Below, in pieces: positions 11,437-15,721 of a stretch of 64,000 nt of DNA. Under the pieces are notes generated by a model. The model was not told where the DNA came from. It was given only the letters and a program-made list of their open reading frames with translations, and searched no databases. The DNA lies in NCBI GenBank assembly GCA_016217545.1, contig JACRHT010000017.1, positions 744,001 to 808,000 of the forward strand, in the 5' to 3' direction. Position numbers and translations under genes: made by a program. Numbering within the stretch: position 1 is the stretch's first letter; each line of letters begins with the position of its first letter. Source of the DNA: Opitutia bacterium. Lineage in GTDB: Bacteria > Verrucomicrobiota > Verrucomicrobiia > Opitutales > Opitutaceae.

Positions 11437-13350
11437 ATGAACGAAAACCAATTCTGGCACAGCACCGATGGCCAGATTTTGACCGTCAAGACCAAGAACG
11501 GCGCCGACTCCGTCAGCCTCACTCTCGCCTTCTGGCCGCGCAATCCCTCCGAGATGGAGTTCCTCAAGGCGCACCTCGCCGACCTGCGGTTCACCGAGCG
11601 CTCGTCGCTCGCGCGCATCGGCATCGAGATGATCGCGCAGGGCGCGCCCAGCGTCGACGGCCACCGTCTGGTCCTCGACGTCGTCTGCTCGCTCTACGAC
11701 CAGAGTTTCCCGAATGCGCCCTACTGGAAGAAACTCCTGCGCCCCGGCGTGCCCGCCGGCCGCCTCTTCTTCGCGCCCGTCGCCGCCAAGCTCTCGACCA
11801 AGGAAATCTGGGACGCCGTGCAGGCCAACCAGCTCAAGCTCCCGAACACCATCTCCATCGACTCGCAGGGCCGCGTGTTCTTCACGCCCCACGCCGTCAG
11901 CTACACGCTCAGCCCGCGCCTCACGCGCCTGAACTTCGAGCACATCGTCTCCGGCTACGCTGGCCGCAGCTTCATCGACAAGGTCCAGATCCGTCACGAC
12001 GCCTCGCCGCTCACCATCCCGCCGCGCGCCGGCATCCTCACGAGCTGCTCGCTCTATTTGAAAGAGCACTTCGTCGTGCTCAGCCCCGGCGAGGGCAACT
12101 TCGGCCTCCACACCAGCGCCGTGCTGCTCGATCCCGTGAAGACGTTCGGCACGAACGTCATGTTGGAAATCTACAACAAGGGCGATCAACCCGTCGTGAA
12201 CCCCATGGTCTCCGTCGAGGTCTTCCGCTCGCCGCCGTCCGAGGACACCGAGTTCAAGTCGCTCGCCAAACGCCGCACGCGCCTGCTCTCCACCGTCTCG
12301 ACGCTCTACAAGTGCCTCGACGAGTATCCGGCTGTCGACTCCGGCGGCGCGAAACCGAAAACCAAGATCACCGTCCGCGGCCAGAGCGCCACGATGGCCA
12401 ACCGCGCCGTCGTCGTCCGCGCGAACGACGAGGACCTCAAGAAACTCCTCGAAGCCGGCTCCTGCCCCCTCGGCGCCAACACCCTCATCGAGGCGCTCGA
12501 CAGCGCTCCCGCCGACGCCGACACGCTCATCGCCGACTACTTCCCAGACCTGCTCGAGCACATGGAGCTCATCACGCGCCTCGGCGACGTGAAGCTCAAG
12601 CGTGTCATCTTCCGCCGCGCCTCGCGCACGCACGGCTACTTCCTTTCCTCGAACGCGCACGCGCGCCTCGATACCTTCAACTCGCTCGGCATCCCCGTCT
12701 ACTGGCACGACGAGATGACCAACGACCTCTACCTCCACACCTACAAGAAGGGCCACGGCTTCTTCGTGCGTGAGGAGATGGCGAAGAAATTCCAGGAGAG
12801 CCCCATCCTCGCGTTCTACGGCTCCGCCGTGCAGCTCGACGCCGACGACACCGCGCGCATCTCCTCGCTCGTCGAGAAACTCAGCGGCTTCATCGGCCCG
12901 AACATCGGCGTGCTCACCGGCGGCGGCGGCGGCGTCATGCGCCTCGCCACCGAGACCGCCCGCGCGAAAGGCGCGCTCACCGGCGCGTGCTTCCTCGAAC
13001 TCGAGGCGCAGCCGCCCGAGCTCGGCGTGGACTTCTTCAACACGTTCCAGGAAACGTCGCGGCACTTCCGCCAAAAGTGGTTCGAAGTCGCCGACTTTTG
13101 CATCTTCAACGTCGGCGGCGTCGGCACGCTCGAAGAAATCGGCATCGAGCTCTGCAACCTCAAGCTCGGCATCCGCCCGCGCACGCCCTACGTGTTCTTC
13201 GGCTCCGGCTTCTGGAAGGATCTCGAGAAACAGGTCAACCTGATGATCCGCGAGAAACGCGCGCCCGCGTGGATGAAGGACTACGTCCTCTTCTCCGAAG
13301 ACCCCGACGAAGTCCTCCGCTTCTACCGCAAGACGCTGCAGGTGCTCTGA
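11437..13350 (+). CDS. LOG-family domain protein with long unknown N-terminal region
   Basis: A 637-residue protein; the ATG at 11437 is the first that avoids a proline-rich lead over the intergenic region. Residues about 455-637 are a Rossmann LOG (lysine-decarboxylase-like) domain: ILAFYGSAV, VLTGGGGGVMRLATETA near residue 490, and NVGGVGTLEEIGIELCN, which corresponds to the PGGxGTxxE motif of cytokinin-activating phosphoribohydrolases with the Pro replaced by Val. The first 450 residues, soluble and of mixed alpha/beta character, are not recognised and have no membrane segment. A nucleoside-monophosphate hydrolase or nucleotide-binding role is possible. It is monocistronic, divergent from the FKBP gene, and ends before a strong hairpin at 13417. 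Confidence 0.75.
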   Translation: MNENQFWHSTDGQILTVKTKNGADSVSLTLAFWPRNPSEMEFLKAHLADLRFTERSSLARIGIEMIAQGAPSVDGHRLVLDVVCSLYDQSFPNAPYWKKLLRPGVPAGRLFFAPVAAKLSTKEIWDAVQANQLKLPNTISIDSQGRVFFTPHAVSYTLSPRLTRLNFEHIVSGYAGRSFIDKVQIRHDASPLTIPPRAGILTSCSLYLKEHFVVLSPGEGNFGLHTSAVLLDPVKTFGTNVMLEIYNKGDQPVVNPMVSVEVFRSPPSEDTEFKSLAKRRTRLLSTVSTLYKCLDEYPAVDSGGAKPKTKITVRGQSATMANRAVVVRANDEDLKKLLEAGSCPLGANTLIEALDSAPADADTLIADYFPDLLEHMELITRLGDVKLKRVIFRRASRTHGYFLSSNAHARLDTFNSLGIPVYWHDEMTNDLYLHTYKKGHGFFVREEMAKKFQESPILAFYGSAVQLDADDTARISSLVEKLSGFIGPNIGVLTGGGGGVMRLATETARAKGALTGACFLELEAQPPELGVDFFNTFQETSRHFRQKWFEVADFCIFNVGGVGTLEEIGIELCNLKLGIRPRTPYVFFGSGFWKDLEKQVNLMIREKRAPAWMKDYVLFSEDPDEVLRFYRKTLQVL

Positions 13351-13470: not shown

Positions 13471-14148
13471 TCAACGAGCCGACGTCGCCAATTCCTTCGC
13501 CATCGCCAGGAGCCTATCCATCCTTCGCACGTCGATCACGCAGCTCCAGTTCCCGTCCGCGCCGCGCTGAAACGCCAAGCGATCCTTGTTGGTGCCGGGC
13601 ACTCGCAACATCATCCGCTCCTCGCCAGCCGATTCCATCGCCGCAGCGTCGAGCACATCGGCGCTCGGAAACGGACTCATCTGCGCCGCCAGCATCACGA
13701 ACGACGCCACCATCTCGTCCGCCGACTTCCATTGGCCGCGCCCCTCCGCCGGCAAGCTCGCGTAGAACGCCTCCGCCTTCGCCCGCGCGTCCGGCTCCGA
13801 TTGCACCAGGCTCTTCAACGCCTCCAAGTCAGCACGGTCGCAGCTCCACGCGAGCGTCTGCAGCGTCGCCCGTGCGGTCGCGCGACCTTCGTTGCGATAC
13901 TCCTCGACCTTCCGCGTCACCACCTCGGCCGGTTTCGCGCGGGAGGTGCGAGCCGTCTCGCTCCCCGTTGACGCGACGGGCACCGCAGCACTCGCCTGCC
14001 GCCGGTAAGCCTCGCCGCGCAAACGGTTGTTCTCGCTGCGCAGACGACGGATTTCGCCGTCCTGTTGTCTCTGGCGATAGGTCAGCCCTCCCGTCGTGAG
14101 CACTGCCGCCACAACGGCCGCACCGATGATCCATTTGAAAATCTTCAT
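13471..14148 (-). CDS. Membrane-anchored protein paralogous to the sigma-factor C-terminal half
   Basis: A 225-residue protein with one N-terminal membrane segment (residues about 5-23, IIGAAVVAAVLTTGGLTY), a short charged coiled coil (GEIRRLRSENNRLRGEAYRR), an Ala/Thr/Ser linker, and a helical C-terminal domain. No known family was recognised. Its whole layout repeats residues 230-481 of the sigma factor encoded just upstream: membrane segment, xLRxENxxL coiled coil, then AxxxLAxLPxExRxQxxxxxxM, a methionine-rich helix, and a QxxxxGxWxxV-like ending. The gene begins 3 bp after the sigma-factor stop, so the two form an operon. An extracytoplasmic sensor or competitor of the sigma factor's own domain is an inference from this duplication. 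Confidence 0.7.
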   Translation of the reverse strand: MKIFKWIIGAAVVAAVLTTGGLTYRQRQQDGEIRRLRSENNRLRGEAYRRQASAAVPVASTGSETARTSRAKPAEVVTRKVEEYRNEGRATARATLQTLAWSCDRADLEALKSLVQSEPDARAKAEAFYASLPAEGRGQWKSADEMVASFVMLAAQMSPFPSADVLDAAAMESAGEERMMLRVPGTNKDRLAFQRGADGNWSCVIDVRRMDRLLAMAKELATSAR

Positions 14149-14151
14149 GAC

Positions 14152-15597
14152 TCAGGGCGACGTCGCCGCCGTTTTGTTCAACCGCGCCAGCGTCCCGCTG
14201 TTCAGGATGCCGGGGAGACCTTTCACACCGCCCTCGGGCAATACGTATTTCCAACCCGTTTCGGTGAGCTGATACTCGTGATAATTCCGGTCCGAGCCCA
14301 CGCGCCGCGACGCCGCGCGGCCCGGAGCGATTTCCACGACCTTCATCATCCGCTCCATCATCTCCGCCGAGGGCGGCGGAGCCTCGAGACATGACGCCGC
14401 CAGCAACATCCCGTAGAGCTTCTCCGGCGTCGGATACTGCGCGCGAATCTCCTCCGGCATTCCCGCGAGCACCGCGACCGCGGCCTCTCGCGCCTTCGCG
14501 TCGAAATAGACCAGCTTCGCCAGCTCATCCGGATCGCAGATATCCGTCGCCCAACCGAACGTCAGCGCCGCATCGTGCGCCGTCGCCGTGCCGTGATTGC
14601 GGTGCCCGCGCGCCGTGACTTCGCCCGCGGAGGCCGCGTCGGGTTTCGCGGACGCCGCCGCACCGGTTCGGTTCGCCTGCCGTCGCTCCATGGCCCGCGA
14701 AATCGCGGTCGCCGTCGTCGCGTATTCGTTGGCGATCGCCGCGACTTCGCTCGACGGCGCTCCCGCCGCGTTGGCGCGCGTGAGCTTCGCGTTTTCCGCG
14801 CGGAGCGATTCCAGTTCCGGACCACGATCCCGGGCCACGGAGGTCCACACCACAGTCGTGAGACCCACGGCAACCAGCGCGCTCAGCGCGACAGCAGCAG
14901 TCTTGTTCATAAGAAAAAACGTCGCCACGGCCGCCGCCGCGCCGGTCGGCGCCGCGGCCACCGCCGCCGCCGACACGCTCGCGGCCACACCCGCCGGCGC
15001 CGCCACGAGCGGCTGATTCGCCAGCAACACGCCCAGCGCCGCCGTCGTCGACGTGACGCCGCGCCGCGCGAGAAGACCGCGCAATTTGTCGAGCGCGCGC
15101 TCCGTGCGCCGCCGCGCCGCATCCTCGCGCAAGCCGAACCGCGCGCCCGCGTCGGCGAACGTCAGCCCGGAAAAATAGCGCAGCAACACGAGCTCGCGAT
15201 CGCGCGCGGAAAGCTCGTCGAGCGCCGCATCGAGCACGGGACGCAACTGCTCCCACGGCACCGTGATTTCGGCGTCGGACGATGAGTCGGTCATGGCGGT
15301 GAGTTCGCGGGCGATTTTCTCGCGTCGCATTTCGGCGCGCAGCGCATCGATCGCCGCGTAGCGCGTGCTGCGATGCAACCAGCCGATCAGCACGGGATGA
15401 TGCGCCAGGAGCGCGGCCTTGCGGGCGAGATCGCAGAAGACGCGCTGTGTGATGTCCTCCGCAAGATGCGCCCGCCCATTGGCGCGCCGCAACGCGGCGG
15501 CATACACCACGTCGACATGCCGGCGCACCAGTTCGGTGAACGCGCCCTCGTCCCGGCGCTGCACGTAAGTTCGGAGGAGTTCGGCATCGTTCGACAT
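14152..15597 (-). CDS. ECF-type sigma factor with C-terminal membrane anchor and extracytoplasmic domain
   Basis: A 481-residue protein. Residues about 8-75 are sigma region 2 (FTELVRRHVDVVYAAALRR, EDITQRVFCDLARKAALLA) and about 115-175 are sigma region 4 (LDELSARDRELVLLRYFSGL, helix-turn-helix ADAGARFGLREDAARRR). An Ala-rich hydrophobic stretch at 185-228 and a clear membrane segment at about 232-253 follow (AVALSALVAVGLTTVVW), then a coiled coil (LESLRAENAKL) and a 170-residue helical domain. The topology puts the sigma domains inside and the C-terminal domain outside, so one polypeptide could both sense and direct transcription, in place of a separate anti-sigma factor. The downstream gene repeats the membrane-plus-external half. 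Targets are unknown. Confidence 0.85.
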   Translation of the reverse strand: MSNDAELLRTYVQRRDEGAFTELVRRHVDVVYAAALRRANGRAHLAEDITQRVFCDLARKAALLAHHPVLIGWLHRSTRYAAIDALRAEMRREKIARELTAMTDSSSDAEITVPWEQLRPVLDAALDELSARDRELVLLRYFSGLTFADAGARFGLREDAARRRTERALDKLRGLLARRGVTSTTAALGVLLANQPLVAAPAGVAASVSAAAVAAAPTGAAAAVATFFLMNKTAAVALSALVAVGLTTVVWTSVARDRGPELESLRAENAKLTRANAAGAPSSEVAAIANEYATTATAISRAMERRQANRTGAAASAKPDAASAGEVTARGHRNHGTATAHDAALTFGWATDICDPDELAKLVYFDAKAREAAVAVLAGMPEEIRAQYPTPEKLYGMLLAASCLEAPPPSAEMMERMMKVVEIAPGRAASRRVGSDRNYHEYQLTETGWKYVLPEGGVKGLPGILNSGTLARLNKTAATSP

Positions 15598-15721
15598 GCG
15601 GCTTCACTCTCTAACCGCGCGTCGGCGCAAAAGCGGACAAAAAATCCGCGTCGGGACGCCGCGTCATGCGCATCCGCGGGCTGGACGCGGCCCGGCATCC
15701 GTGCCCATCTGTTCTCCACCT

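Follow-up and report, generated by a model that had tools for sequence, protein, structure and literature searches.

The window analysed here is a stretch of 64,000 nucleotides (nt) of the genome of an Opitutia bacterium of the Opitutaceae (contig JACRHT010000017.1, positions 744,001 to 808,000; G000:C17:744001-808000 in the coordinates of the analysis). On its minus strand lie a gene for a sigma factor of the extracytoplasmic function (ECF) type, which is putatively tethered to the membrane, and, directly behind it, a gene for a second protein, called here the partner, which is homologous to the outer half of the sigma factor (Table 1). The long open reading frames (ORFs) on either side, one ending at 13350 and the other starting at about 15.7 kb, are both on the plus strand, and the pair therefore looks like a two-gene operon. 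By eye, the product of the ORF starting at about 15.7 kb resembles phosphoribosylamine-glycine ligase. When the window was compared with the corresponding locus of a congener (L119), the ratio of nonsynonymous to synonymous substitution rates (dN/dS) within the sigma gene was 0.15 over the sigma part, 0.30 over the linker plus hydrophobic segment and 0.13 over the outer domain. In the partner gene it was 0.28 (0.18 for the outer domain alone), which indicates that this gene is under purifying selection.

Table 1. Features of the sigma/partner gene pair, in coordinates of the window
Feature	Position	Strand	Details and basis
-35-like element TTTTTTGTCCGCTTTT	15629..15644	minus	TGTNCGNTT family pattern; exact site located upstream of the sigma gene
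-10-like element CGGTTA	15612..15617	minus	upstream alignment of six class A sigma genes and family matrix; read by geometry
ECF sigma factor gene, putatively membrane-tethered	14152..15597	minus	481 residues, ATG start; ORF and translation; Pfam Sigma70_r2, r4 and r4_2 above cut-off
Sigma region 2, residues 23-91	15325..15531	minus	PF04542, E 1.4e-6; model against E. coli sigmaE region 2, Z 12.0, 1.8 Å, 91 residues
Sigma region 4, residues 122-173	15079..15234	minus	PF08281, 5.3e-10; PF04545, 4.2e-11
Ala/Pro-rich linker, conserved in the family, AAPAG motif, residues 185-229	14911..15045	minus	85-row alignment, with P201 conserved to >=90%
Junction Met230 and hydrophobic (putative membrane) segment, about residues 230-257	14827..14910	minus	hydropathy
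Putative coiled coil, LRAEN, about residues 258-316	14650..14826	minus	long lower-confidence helices in AlphaFold2 model; aligns to partner LRSEN stretch
Sigma outer domain, class A, probably NTF2-like, residues 340-466	14200..14580	minus	predicted local distance difference test (pLDDT) mostly >90; class A profile, E 3e-32
Intergenic gap between sigma gene and partner gene	14149..14151		3 bp; from ORF coordinates
Partner protein gene	13471..14148	minus	225 residues; ORF; dN/dS 0.28 against copy in congener
Partner N-terminal hydrophobic segment, about residues 5-23	14080..14136	minus	hydropathy 1.71, 19-mer window from residue 3
Partner putative coiled-coil stretch LRSENNRLRG	13987..14076	minus	within single model helix, residues 3-54
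Partner outer domain, class A, probably NTF2-like, residues 90-224	13477..13881	minus	pLDDT >90 over most of the domain; best structural Z 7.0

An ECF sigma factor carrying its own hydrophobic segment had been proposed from the sequence in the original prediction, and this proposal held. The protein matches TIGR02937 (E 1.7e-19) as well as PF04542, PF04545 and PF08281 above their cut-offs, and the sigma part of its AlphaFold2 model matches the structures of sigmaE, SigW and CnrH. The best 19-residue window on the Kyte-Doolittle scale, at residue 234, scores 1.96, and we infer that the protein spans the membrane through this putative segment, which follows region 4. The Ala/Pro-rich linker with its AAPAG motif, between region 4 and the hydrophobic segment, is conserved in the relatives too; it may lie against either the sigma part or the membrane.

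The partner is likewise predicted to span the membrane. Sigma residues 239-440 were aligned by BLASTP, in the same order, with partner residues 10-202 (E 3e-13, 29% identity), so that the two outer halves are significantly similar. It had been claimed that sigma residues 230-481 correspond to the whole partner; homology and order of the parts stand, and the last 41 sigma residues fall outside this alignment. When the whole genome was searched, the sigma protein retrieved the partner (E 1.1e-7) and the partner retrieved the sigma outer half (E 2.7e-7). Behind the coiled coil, the AlphaFold2 models of both proteins have the same order of elements: helices 340-353, 356-362, 367-378, 382-387, 391-405 and 411-417, four strands and then a helix in the sigma factor, and helices 92-104, 108-114, 119-131, 134-137, 143-157 and 163-168, four strands and then a helix in the partner, with one additional 3-residue strand (115-117) in the latter. 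The mean pLDDT is 83.0 for the sigma factor and 83.8 for the partner, confidence being high in the outer domains. In a structural comparison with VIA-align, the best match of the partner outer domain was an NTF2-like protein (97 residues, 3.5 Å), and most of the 50 listed structures were NTF2-like (Z 4.8-7.0, all below Z 8). According to the models, this domain, designated class A, is probably NTF2-like, a fold that is also that of SnoaL; no Pfam match to it was found in the window proteins or in the class A partners described below.

A search of 57 related genomes, including that of the window, gave 87 matches to the sigma protein at E<=1e-20 in 21 genomes, two of them in the window's genome. 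With a fragment at a contig edge (G052:C59) left out, 86 sigma genes were analysed. A hydrophobic 19-mer (Kyte-Doolittle >=1.44, start between residues 175 and 300) is present past region 4 in all 86, which were chosen by similarity to the window sigma protein, a choice that may favour a shared layout; judged by hydropathy alone, they thus belong to the ECF sigma factors with a membrane-spanning regulatory extension. The mean net charge is +1.0 before and 0.0 behind this segment, as expected if the N-terminal side is cytoplasmic. From their sequences, the outer parts are modular across the family. Among the 25 of 33 Pfam families listed at E<=0.01 were TonB_C (13 of the 86), ExbD (3, one of them weak) and NfeD (2), and serpin, type II secretion system (T2SS) protein G, SLBB, PDZ and DUF4878 were found once each. 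TonB_C, ExbD, pseudopilin and serpin domains typically function outside the cytoplasm, which supports a topology with periplasmic outer domains. For the classification of the outer domains, profiles built from hand-picked seeds gave ten classes, not all intercompared, in addition to the serpin, T2SS protein G, PDZ and SLBB types.

The sigma family extends further. In a class-wide sample, a sigma match at E<=1e-25 was found in 59 of 286 genomes; the partner search matched 37 of the 286, a count not used for the outer domain as many of these matches cover the hydrophobic and coiled-coil part alone. The eight best relatives among named records include five from Verrucomicrobiota and two from Planctomycetota, and in 25 weaker named-record relatives from other phyla the similarity is mostly confined to the sigma part.

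The gene pair recurs among the relatives: a protein of class A, B or C is encoded behind 41 of the 86 sigma genes. The distance between the two genes is -50 to +44 nt in 38 of the 41 pairs and 82, 218 and 307 nt in the other three. A clear N-terminal hydrophobic segment, starting within the first 26 residues, was found in 38 of the 41 partners by a search confined to starts in the first 45 residues. Sigma factors with a class A outer domain are followed by class A partners (8 pairs), as are those of the TonB_C type (12) and the ExbD type (3), those of class B by class B partners (12, including one longer variant, S69) and those of class C by class C partners (6); no other combination was observed. 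The class is identical in 26 of the 41 pairs, compared to a mean of 8.9 and a maximum of 18 after shuffling, in which kinship is ignored. Classes A, B and C are mutually unrelated (pairwise hhalign probability 0.1-0.7%), and the arrangement seen in the window is thus present in three unrelated domain families. When each sigma protein from residue 186 onward, including the hydrophobic and coiled-coil parts, was compared to its own partner by BLASTP with the filter off, E values below 1e-4 were obtained for 24 of the 26 same-class pairs; the S07 (0.97) and S37 (0.046) pairs owe their class assignment to the profiles alone. In some of the TonB_C pairs the match lies ahead of the outer domains (S54, 2e-8; S64, 1e-7; S70, 9e-7).

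Two relatives combine both halves in a single chain. The protein of L207, from a genome (G271) of the same family as the window, consists of a sigma part, a linker and two class A domains, the first of which is closest to the outer half of the window sigma factor (5.8e-26) and the second to the window partner (2.6e-26). In the tree, domain 1 groups with six sigma outer domains (96/86) and domain 2 with the group of the window partner (97/94), and a class A partner ORF is absent from the 5 kb around the gene. By inspection, no membrane segment lies between the two domains, and both should therefore face the same side. The second chain, L107 (S33, 733 residues, G016), carries two class B domains. 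In a tree in which several rows have long branches, its domain 2 falls among seven class B partners (95/92) and its domain 1 among seven sigma outer domains (92/89, a branch that is not starred); no class B partner was found behind this gene. That such fusions occur naturally in two domain families with no relation to each other is the strongest evidence for joint action of the halves. A possible further pair was seen outside the family of the window (L210, G120), with a partner match at E 3.3e-8 and a weak match to the sigma outer domain (0.0017).

The origin of the pair was reconsidered in this larger set. The original prediction had invoked the local fusion of a sigma gene with its downstream neighbour, and this explanation is not supported, since the tethered layout is found in all 86 relatives and hence predates the window pair, and since the outer domain has been exchanged many times: a sigma-part tree (86 rows, 191 columns) requires 33 changes of outer-domain class, compared to a minimum of 10. 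It had also taken Met230 for an old start codon. A Met does recur within the 16 residues around the junction in 71 of the 86 relatives, compared to 25% of random 16-residue stretches, but an internal translation start at this position is not supported, as a Shine-Dalgarno-like stretch precedes 11 of 70 junction Mets and 202 of 619 other internal Mets, in a test that is weak because such a stretch is present at just 29 of 86 sigma starts and 6 of 40 classified starts of downstream genes.

The duplication that was part of the same proposal has in fact recurred within the family. In the outer-domain trees of classes A and B, domains of the sigma type and of the partner type form mostly separate groups, with exceptions. 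For class C, S81 has both of its domains as sisters in the tree (96/98), the S72 domains are placed with S04 (100/100; rows less than half filled) and the four domains of S29 and S38 fall in one group (99/98); for class B, the two S69 domains are sisters (100/99; one row less than half filled). These cases point to repeated duplication. The sigma outer domains of S44-S48 and S85 cluster with the partners of S44, S45 and S85 in the group containing the window (86/92; 88/90), which suggests, without strong support, that this group underwent a duplication of its own. Taken together, the trees indicate that the tethered layout is old, that its outer half is exchangeable and that matching partners arose, or travelled along with it, more than once.

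Upstream of the sigma genes a common motif was found, which consists of TTTTTGTnCGGTTT followed by a TGTTAt-like element 17 bp behind TGTnCG. The pattern TGTNCGNTT occurs upstream of 56 of the 86 sigma genes, compared to 0.8 expected from Markov shuffles (maximum 3) and to 1 on the reverse strand; a looser pattern is present at 62 of the 86, in 38 of these at 41-44 nt before the start codon. The motif varies with the sigma clade: in one clade (fork support 93/95) the variant GTCNGA precedes 12 of 21 genes, compared to 4 of 65 others, whereas GTNCGST precedes 5 of the 21 and 46 of the 65. Its presence before most sigma genes and its variation with the clade suggest autoregulation, and it has the look of an ECF promoter under autoregulation whose leader is very short, the putative -35 and -10 elements being assigned by geometry. 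About 14 nt separate the end of the -10-like element from the start codon (window positions 15598-15617), and the upstream regions of the relatives are alike; transcripts would thus be leaderless or nearly so. Another pair in the window's own genome (L016:2084-4184, minus strand), composed of a sigma factor of the TonB_C type (PF03544, 4.6e-15) and a class A partner behind it, is preceded by the same motif. This sigma gene and that of the window account for 2 of the 16 exact TTTGTNCGNTT sites of the genome, and none of the other 14 was seen by eye to have the same geometry before a clear gene. A larger regulon was rejected as a candidate, the exact sequence being at genome background.

The anatomy of the two proteins, their homology, the pairing rule, the fusions and the promoter motif emerge from sequence comparison, and they make it probable, in our judgement, that the pair forms a transmembrane sensor of two subunits, one of them containing the sigma factor itself. 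Both proteins would reside in the inner membrane with their outer domains in the periplasm, where these domains and the coiled coils would associate into a hetero-oligomer that holds the sigma part at the membrane in an inactive state. Upon an envelope signal, the complex would change and free the sigma part to act, either through regulated intramembrane proteolysis, as in the IutY hybrid considered below, or with the sigma part still tethered. Once active, the sigma factor might use the conserved promoter ahead of its gene and so transcribe the two-gene operon that encodes it. More tentatively, and with somewhat more doubt than belief, we envisage this receptor architecture as widespread in the bacterial class: the sigma factor would be a subunit of a hetero-oligomeric receptor, and matched sensor pairs would be exchanged, fused or split, so that one promoter-recognition module could be rewired to many envelope inputs without an anti-sigma factor.

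Several observations weigh against a paired sensor. The most hydrophobic window starts before residue 200, in the Ala-rich linker, in 9 of the 86 sigma factors; three of the 41 partners (those of S23, S45 and S68) have no clear hydrophobic segment as called, and the charges flanking the partner segments leave their topology unsettled. The fold match is middling, since VIA-align gave no higher Z than that in Table 1 and Foldseek gave no match for the outer domain at E<=0.001. No A, B or C partner is found behind 45 of the 86 sigma genes, three of which end 180 nt or less from a contig end, and even of the 11 class A sigma genes whose downstream sequence is long enough for a judgement, three (S47, S48 and S76) have none, so that the partner is not obligatory. 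The own partner is usually not the most similar one, ranking 4-23 among the 23 of class A (1-12 among the 12 of class B and 1-3 among the 6 of class C), and fine-scale co-evolution between individual sigma outer domains and their partners was therefore rejected as evidence. Independent contrasts for class matching are all in the expected direction but few (1-2 on starred branches, 3-6 on all branches), a number with which a sign test is unable to reach 0.05; much of the class matching may thus have been inherited, or may stem from exchanges in which the 3' half and the gene behind it moved as one. Finally, the exact 11-mer TTTGTNCGNTT shows no genome-wide excess over its reversed control (16 and 17 occurrences, respectively), and a wider regulon is not visible.

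The partnerless genes would be accounted for if the sigma factor were a self-sufficient one-component sensor and the downstream gene a by-product of duplication or exchange, with another role or dispensable, and the existence of clusters of family sigma genes (ten genes on G035:C102) fits this as well. We nevertheless consider it unlikely, because the partner is under purifying selection and because matching partners in three unrelated classes, together with two fusions, would not be expected of a by-product. The original prediction left it open whether the partner competes or hetero-oligomerises with the sigma factor. As a dominant-negative competitor, it would oligomerise with the sigma outer half, dilute sigma-sigma contacts and lower the output; it lacks a sigma part but has a coiled coil and an outer domain homologous to those of the sigma factor, and its adjacent gene would make the negative feedback automatic. 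Competition requires separate chains, however, and would be abolished by fusion onto the sigma chain as in L207 and L107. Moreover, in 15 of the 41 pairs, those with TonB_C or ExbD sigma factors, the classes differ and homotypic competition between outer domains is inapplicable, although some coiled coils match. A competitor thus appears quite improbable, and sigma-type and partner-type domains in a single chain favour a heteromeric sensor over a competing paralogue; of the two possibilities first raised, joint action fits better.

The usual operon order of sigma and anti-sigma genes might still suggest that the partner, as a divergent member of the membrane anti-sigma factors, acts on the cytoplasmic sigma domains, with which its gene position, the autoregulation-like promoter and its N-terminal hydrophobic segment would agree. 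In line with the design without a separate anti-sigma factor that was first raised, no anti-sigma Pfam domain was found in the window sigma factor or the partner (E<=1), and none was found in the 23 class A partners (E<=0.1). In the window partner the hydrophobic segment starts at about the third residue and few residues are left before it, unlike in membrane anti-sigma factors; with starts within 26 residues in the 38 partners mentioned above, the cytoplasmic part is too short, known anti-sigma domains being longer. Such a function is therefore very improbable.

A two-subunit sensor that includes the sigma factor can be compared to known systems. IutY, a hybrid of Pseudomonas putida, has an anti-sigma half that is FecR-like. 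This sigma/anti-sigma hybrid (ECF243) is released by Prc and RseP, and its extension is the membrane anti-sigma factor of an iron-uptake surface-signalling system (PMC8999054). Like IutY, the window protein would unite a sigma factor and a membrane-bound regulatory half in one chain, and release by Prc and RseP offers a precedent for activation; unlike IutY, it has no FecR-type or other anti-sigma Pfam match (E<=1), and the adjacent gene codes for a membrane partner homologous to it. In Actinobacteria, ECF48, ECF52 and ECF53 have a C-terminal extension with one or two transmembrane helices and a zinc-finger domain, and their member SCO4117 has an outer carbohydrate-binding domain (PMC8999054). 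The window sigma factor shares the putative transmembrane C-terminal extension, but has no zinc-finger Pfam match (E<=1), and Cys is absent between residues 56 and 330; the passages of PMC8999054 on these groups mention no second membrane protein that is homologous. ECF41, ECF56 and other groups have a SnoaL-like C-terminal extension, which in ECF41 contacts the sigma part (PMC8999054). A domain of probably the same general fold is attached to the window sigma factor, in which, unlike in ECF41 and ECF56, a hydrophobic segment and a coiled coil intervene, a second copy is encoded next door and no SnoaL Pfam match is found. ECF42 has a neighbour gene for a YCII-domain protein (PMC8999054); unlike in the window pair, the part of that source on ECF42 describes neither homology between extension and neighbour nor a membrane location for them. 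In ECF57, WD40-like repeats are present and regions 2 and 4 are linked by two conserved Cys (PMC8999054, PMC8103513), whereas the window sigma factor has no WD40 match and one Cys in residues 1-180.

In the ECF systems covered by these two sources, either an anti-sigma factor separates the sensor from the sigma factor or a regulatory half is joined to the sigma factor (PMC8999054, PMC8103513). Among the literature matches listed, judged by titles and abstract openings, no account was found of this family or of paired sigma and partner outer domains. If the two-subunit sensor is correct, the sigma factor would itself form part of a receptor, paired with a second subunit and equipped with outer domains that are interchangeable, and a function would be suggested for gene pairs that are otherwise read as a sigma factor and a hypothetical protein. 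The 86 genes would constitute a natural library for studying the switching of a sigma factor held at the membrane, and would offer synthetic envelope sensors a plug-in format.

Some family members differ in their outer parts or surroundings. In L108 (2279-4312, plus strand) the outer part is a full-length serpin domain (PF00079, residues 281-677, E 2.6e-94), and this sigma factor is possibly triggered by a protease. Three sigma genes with an NfeD-type extension, class N (L081:1392-4323, L095:1201-4128 and L096:2254-5187), are each followed at 37-48 nt by a flotillin/SPFH gene, although L081 itself is unmatched by Pfam NfeD at 0.01, being outside the 2 of 86 members with such a match. Pairs of NfeD and flotillin genes are known, and class N echoes them; the recurrence of this arrangement speaks for the paired sensor. 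The ten family sigma genes of G035:C102 form two clusters (L125 and L127; about 39-52 kb and 70-79 kb), in which differing outer domains stand side by side and a class A partner is found behind 4 of the 10. Among the other outer domains are a T2SS protein G domain in L142:2169-3425, a PDZ domain in L106:1724-3355 and an SLBB domain in L127:7219-8502.

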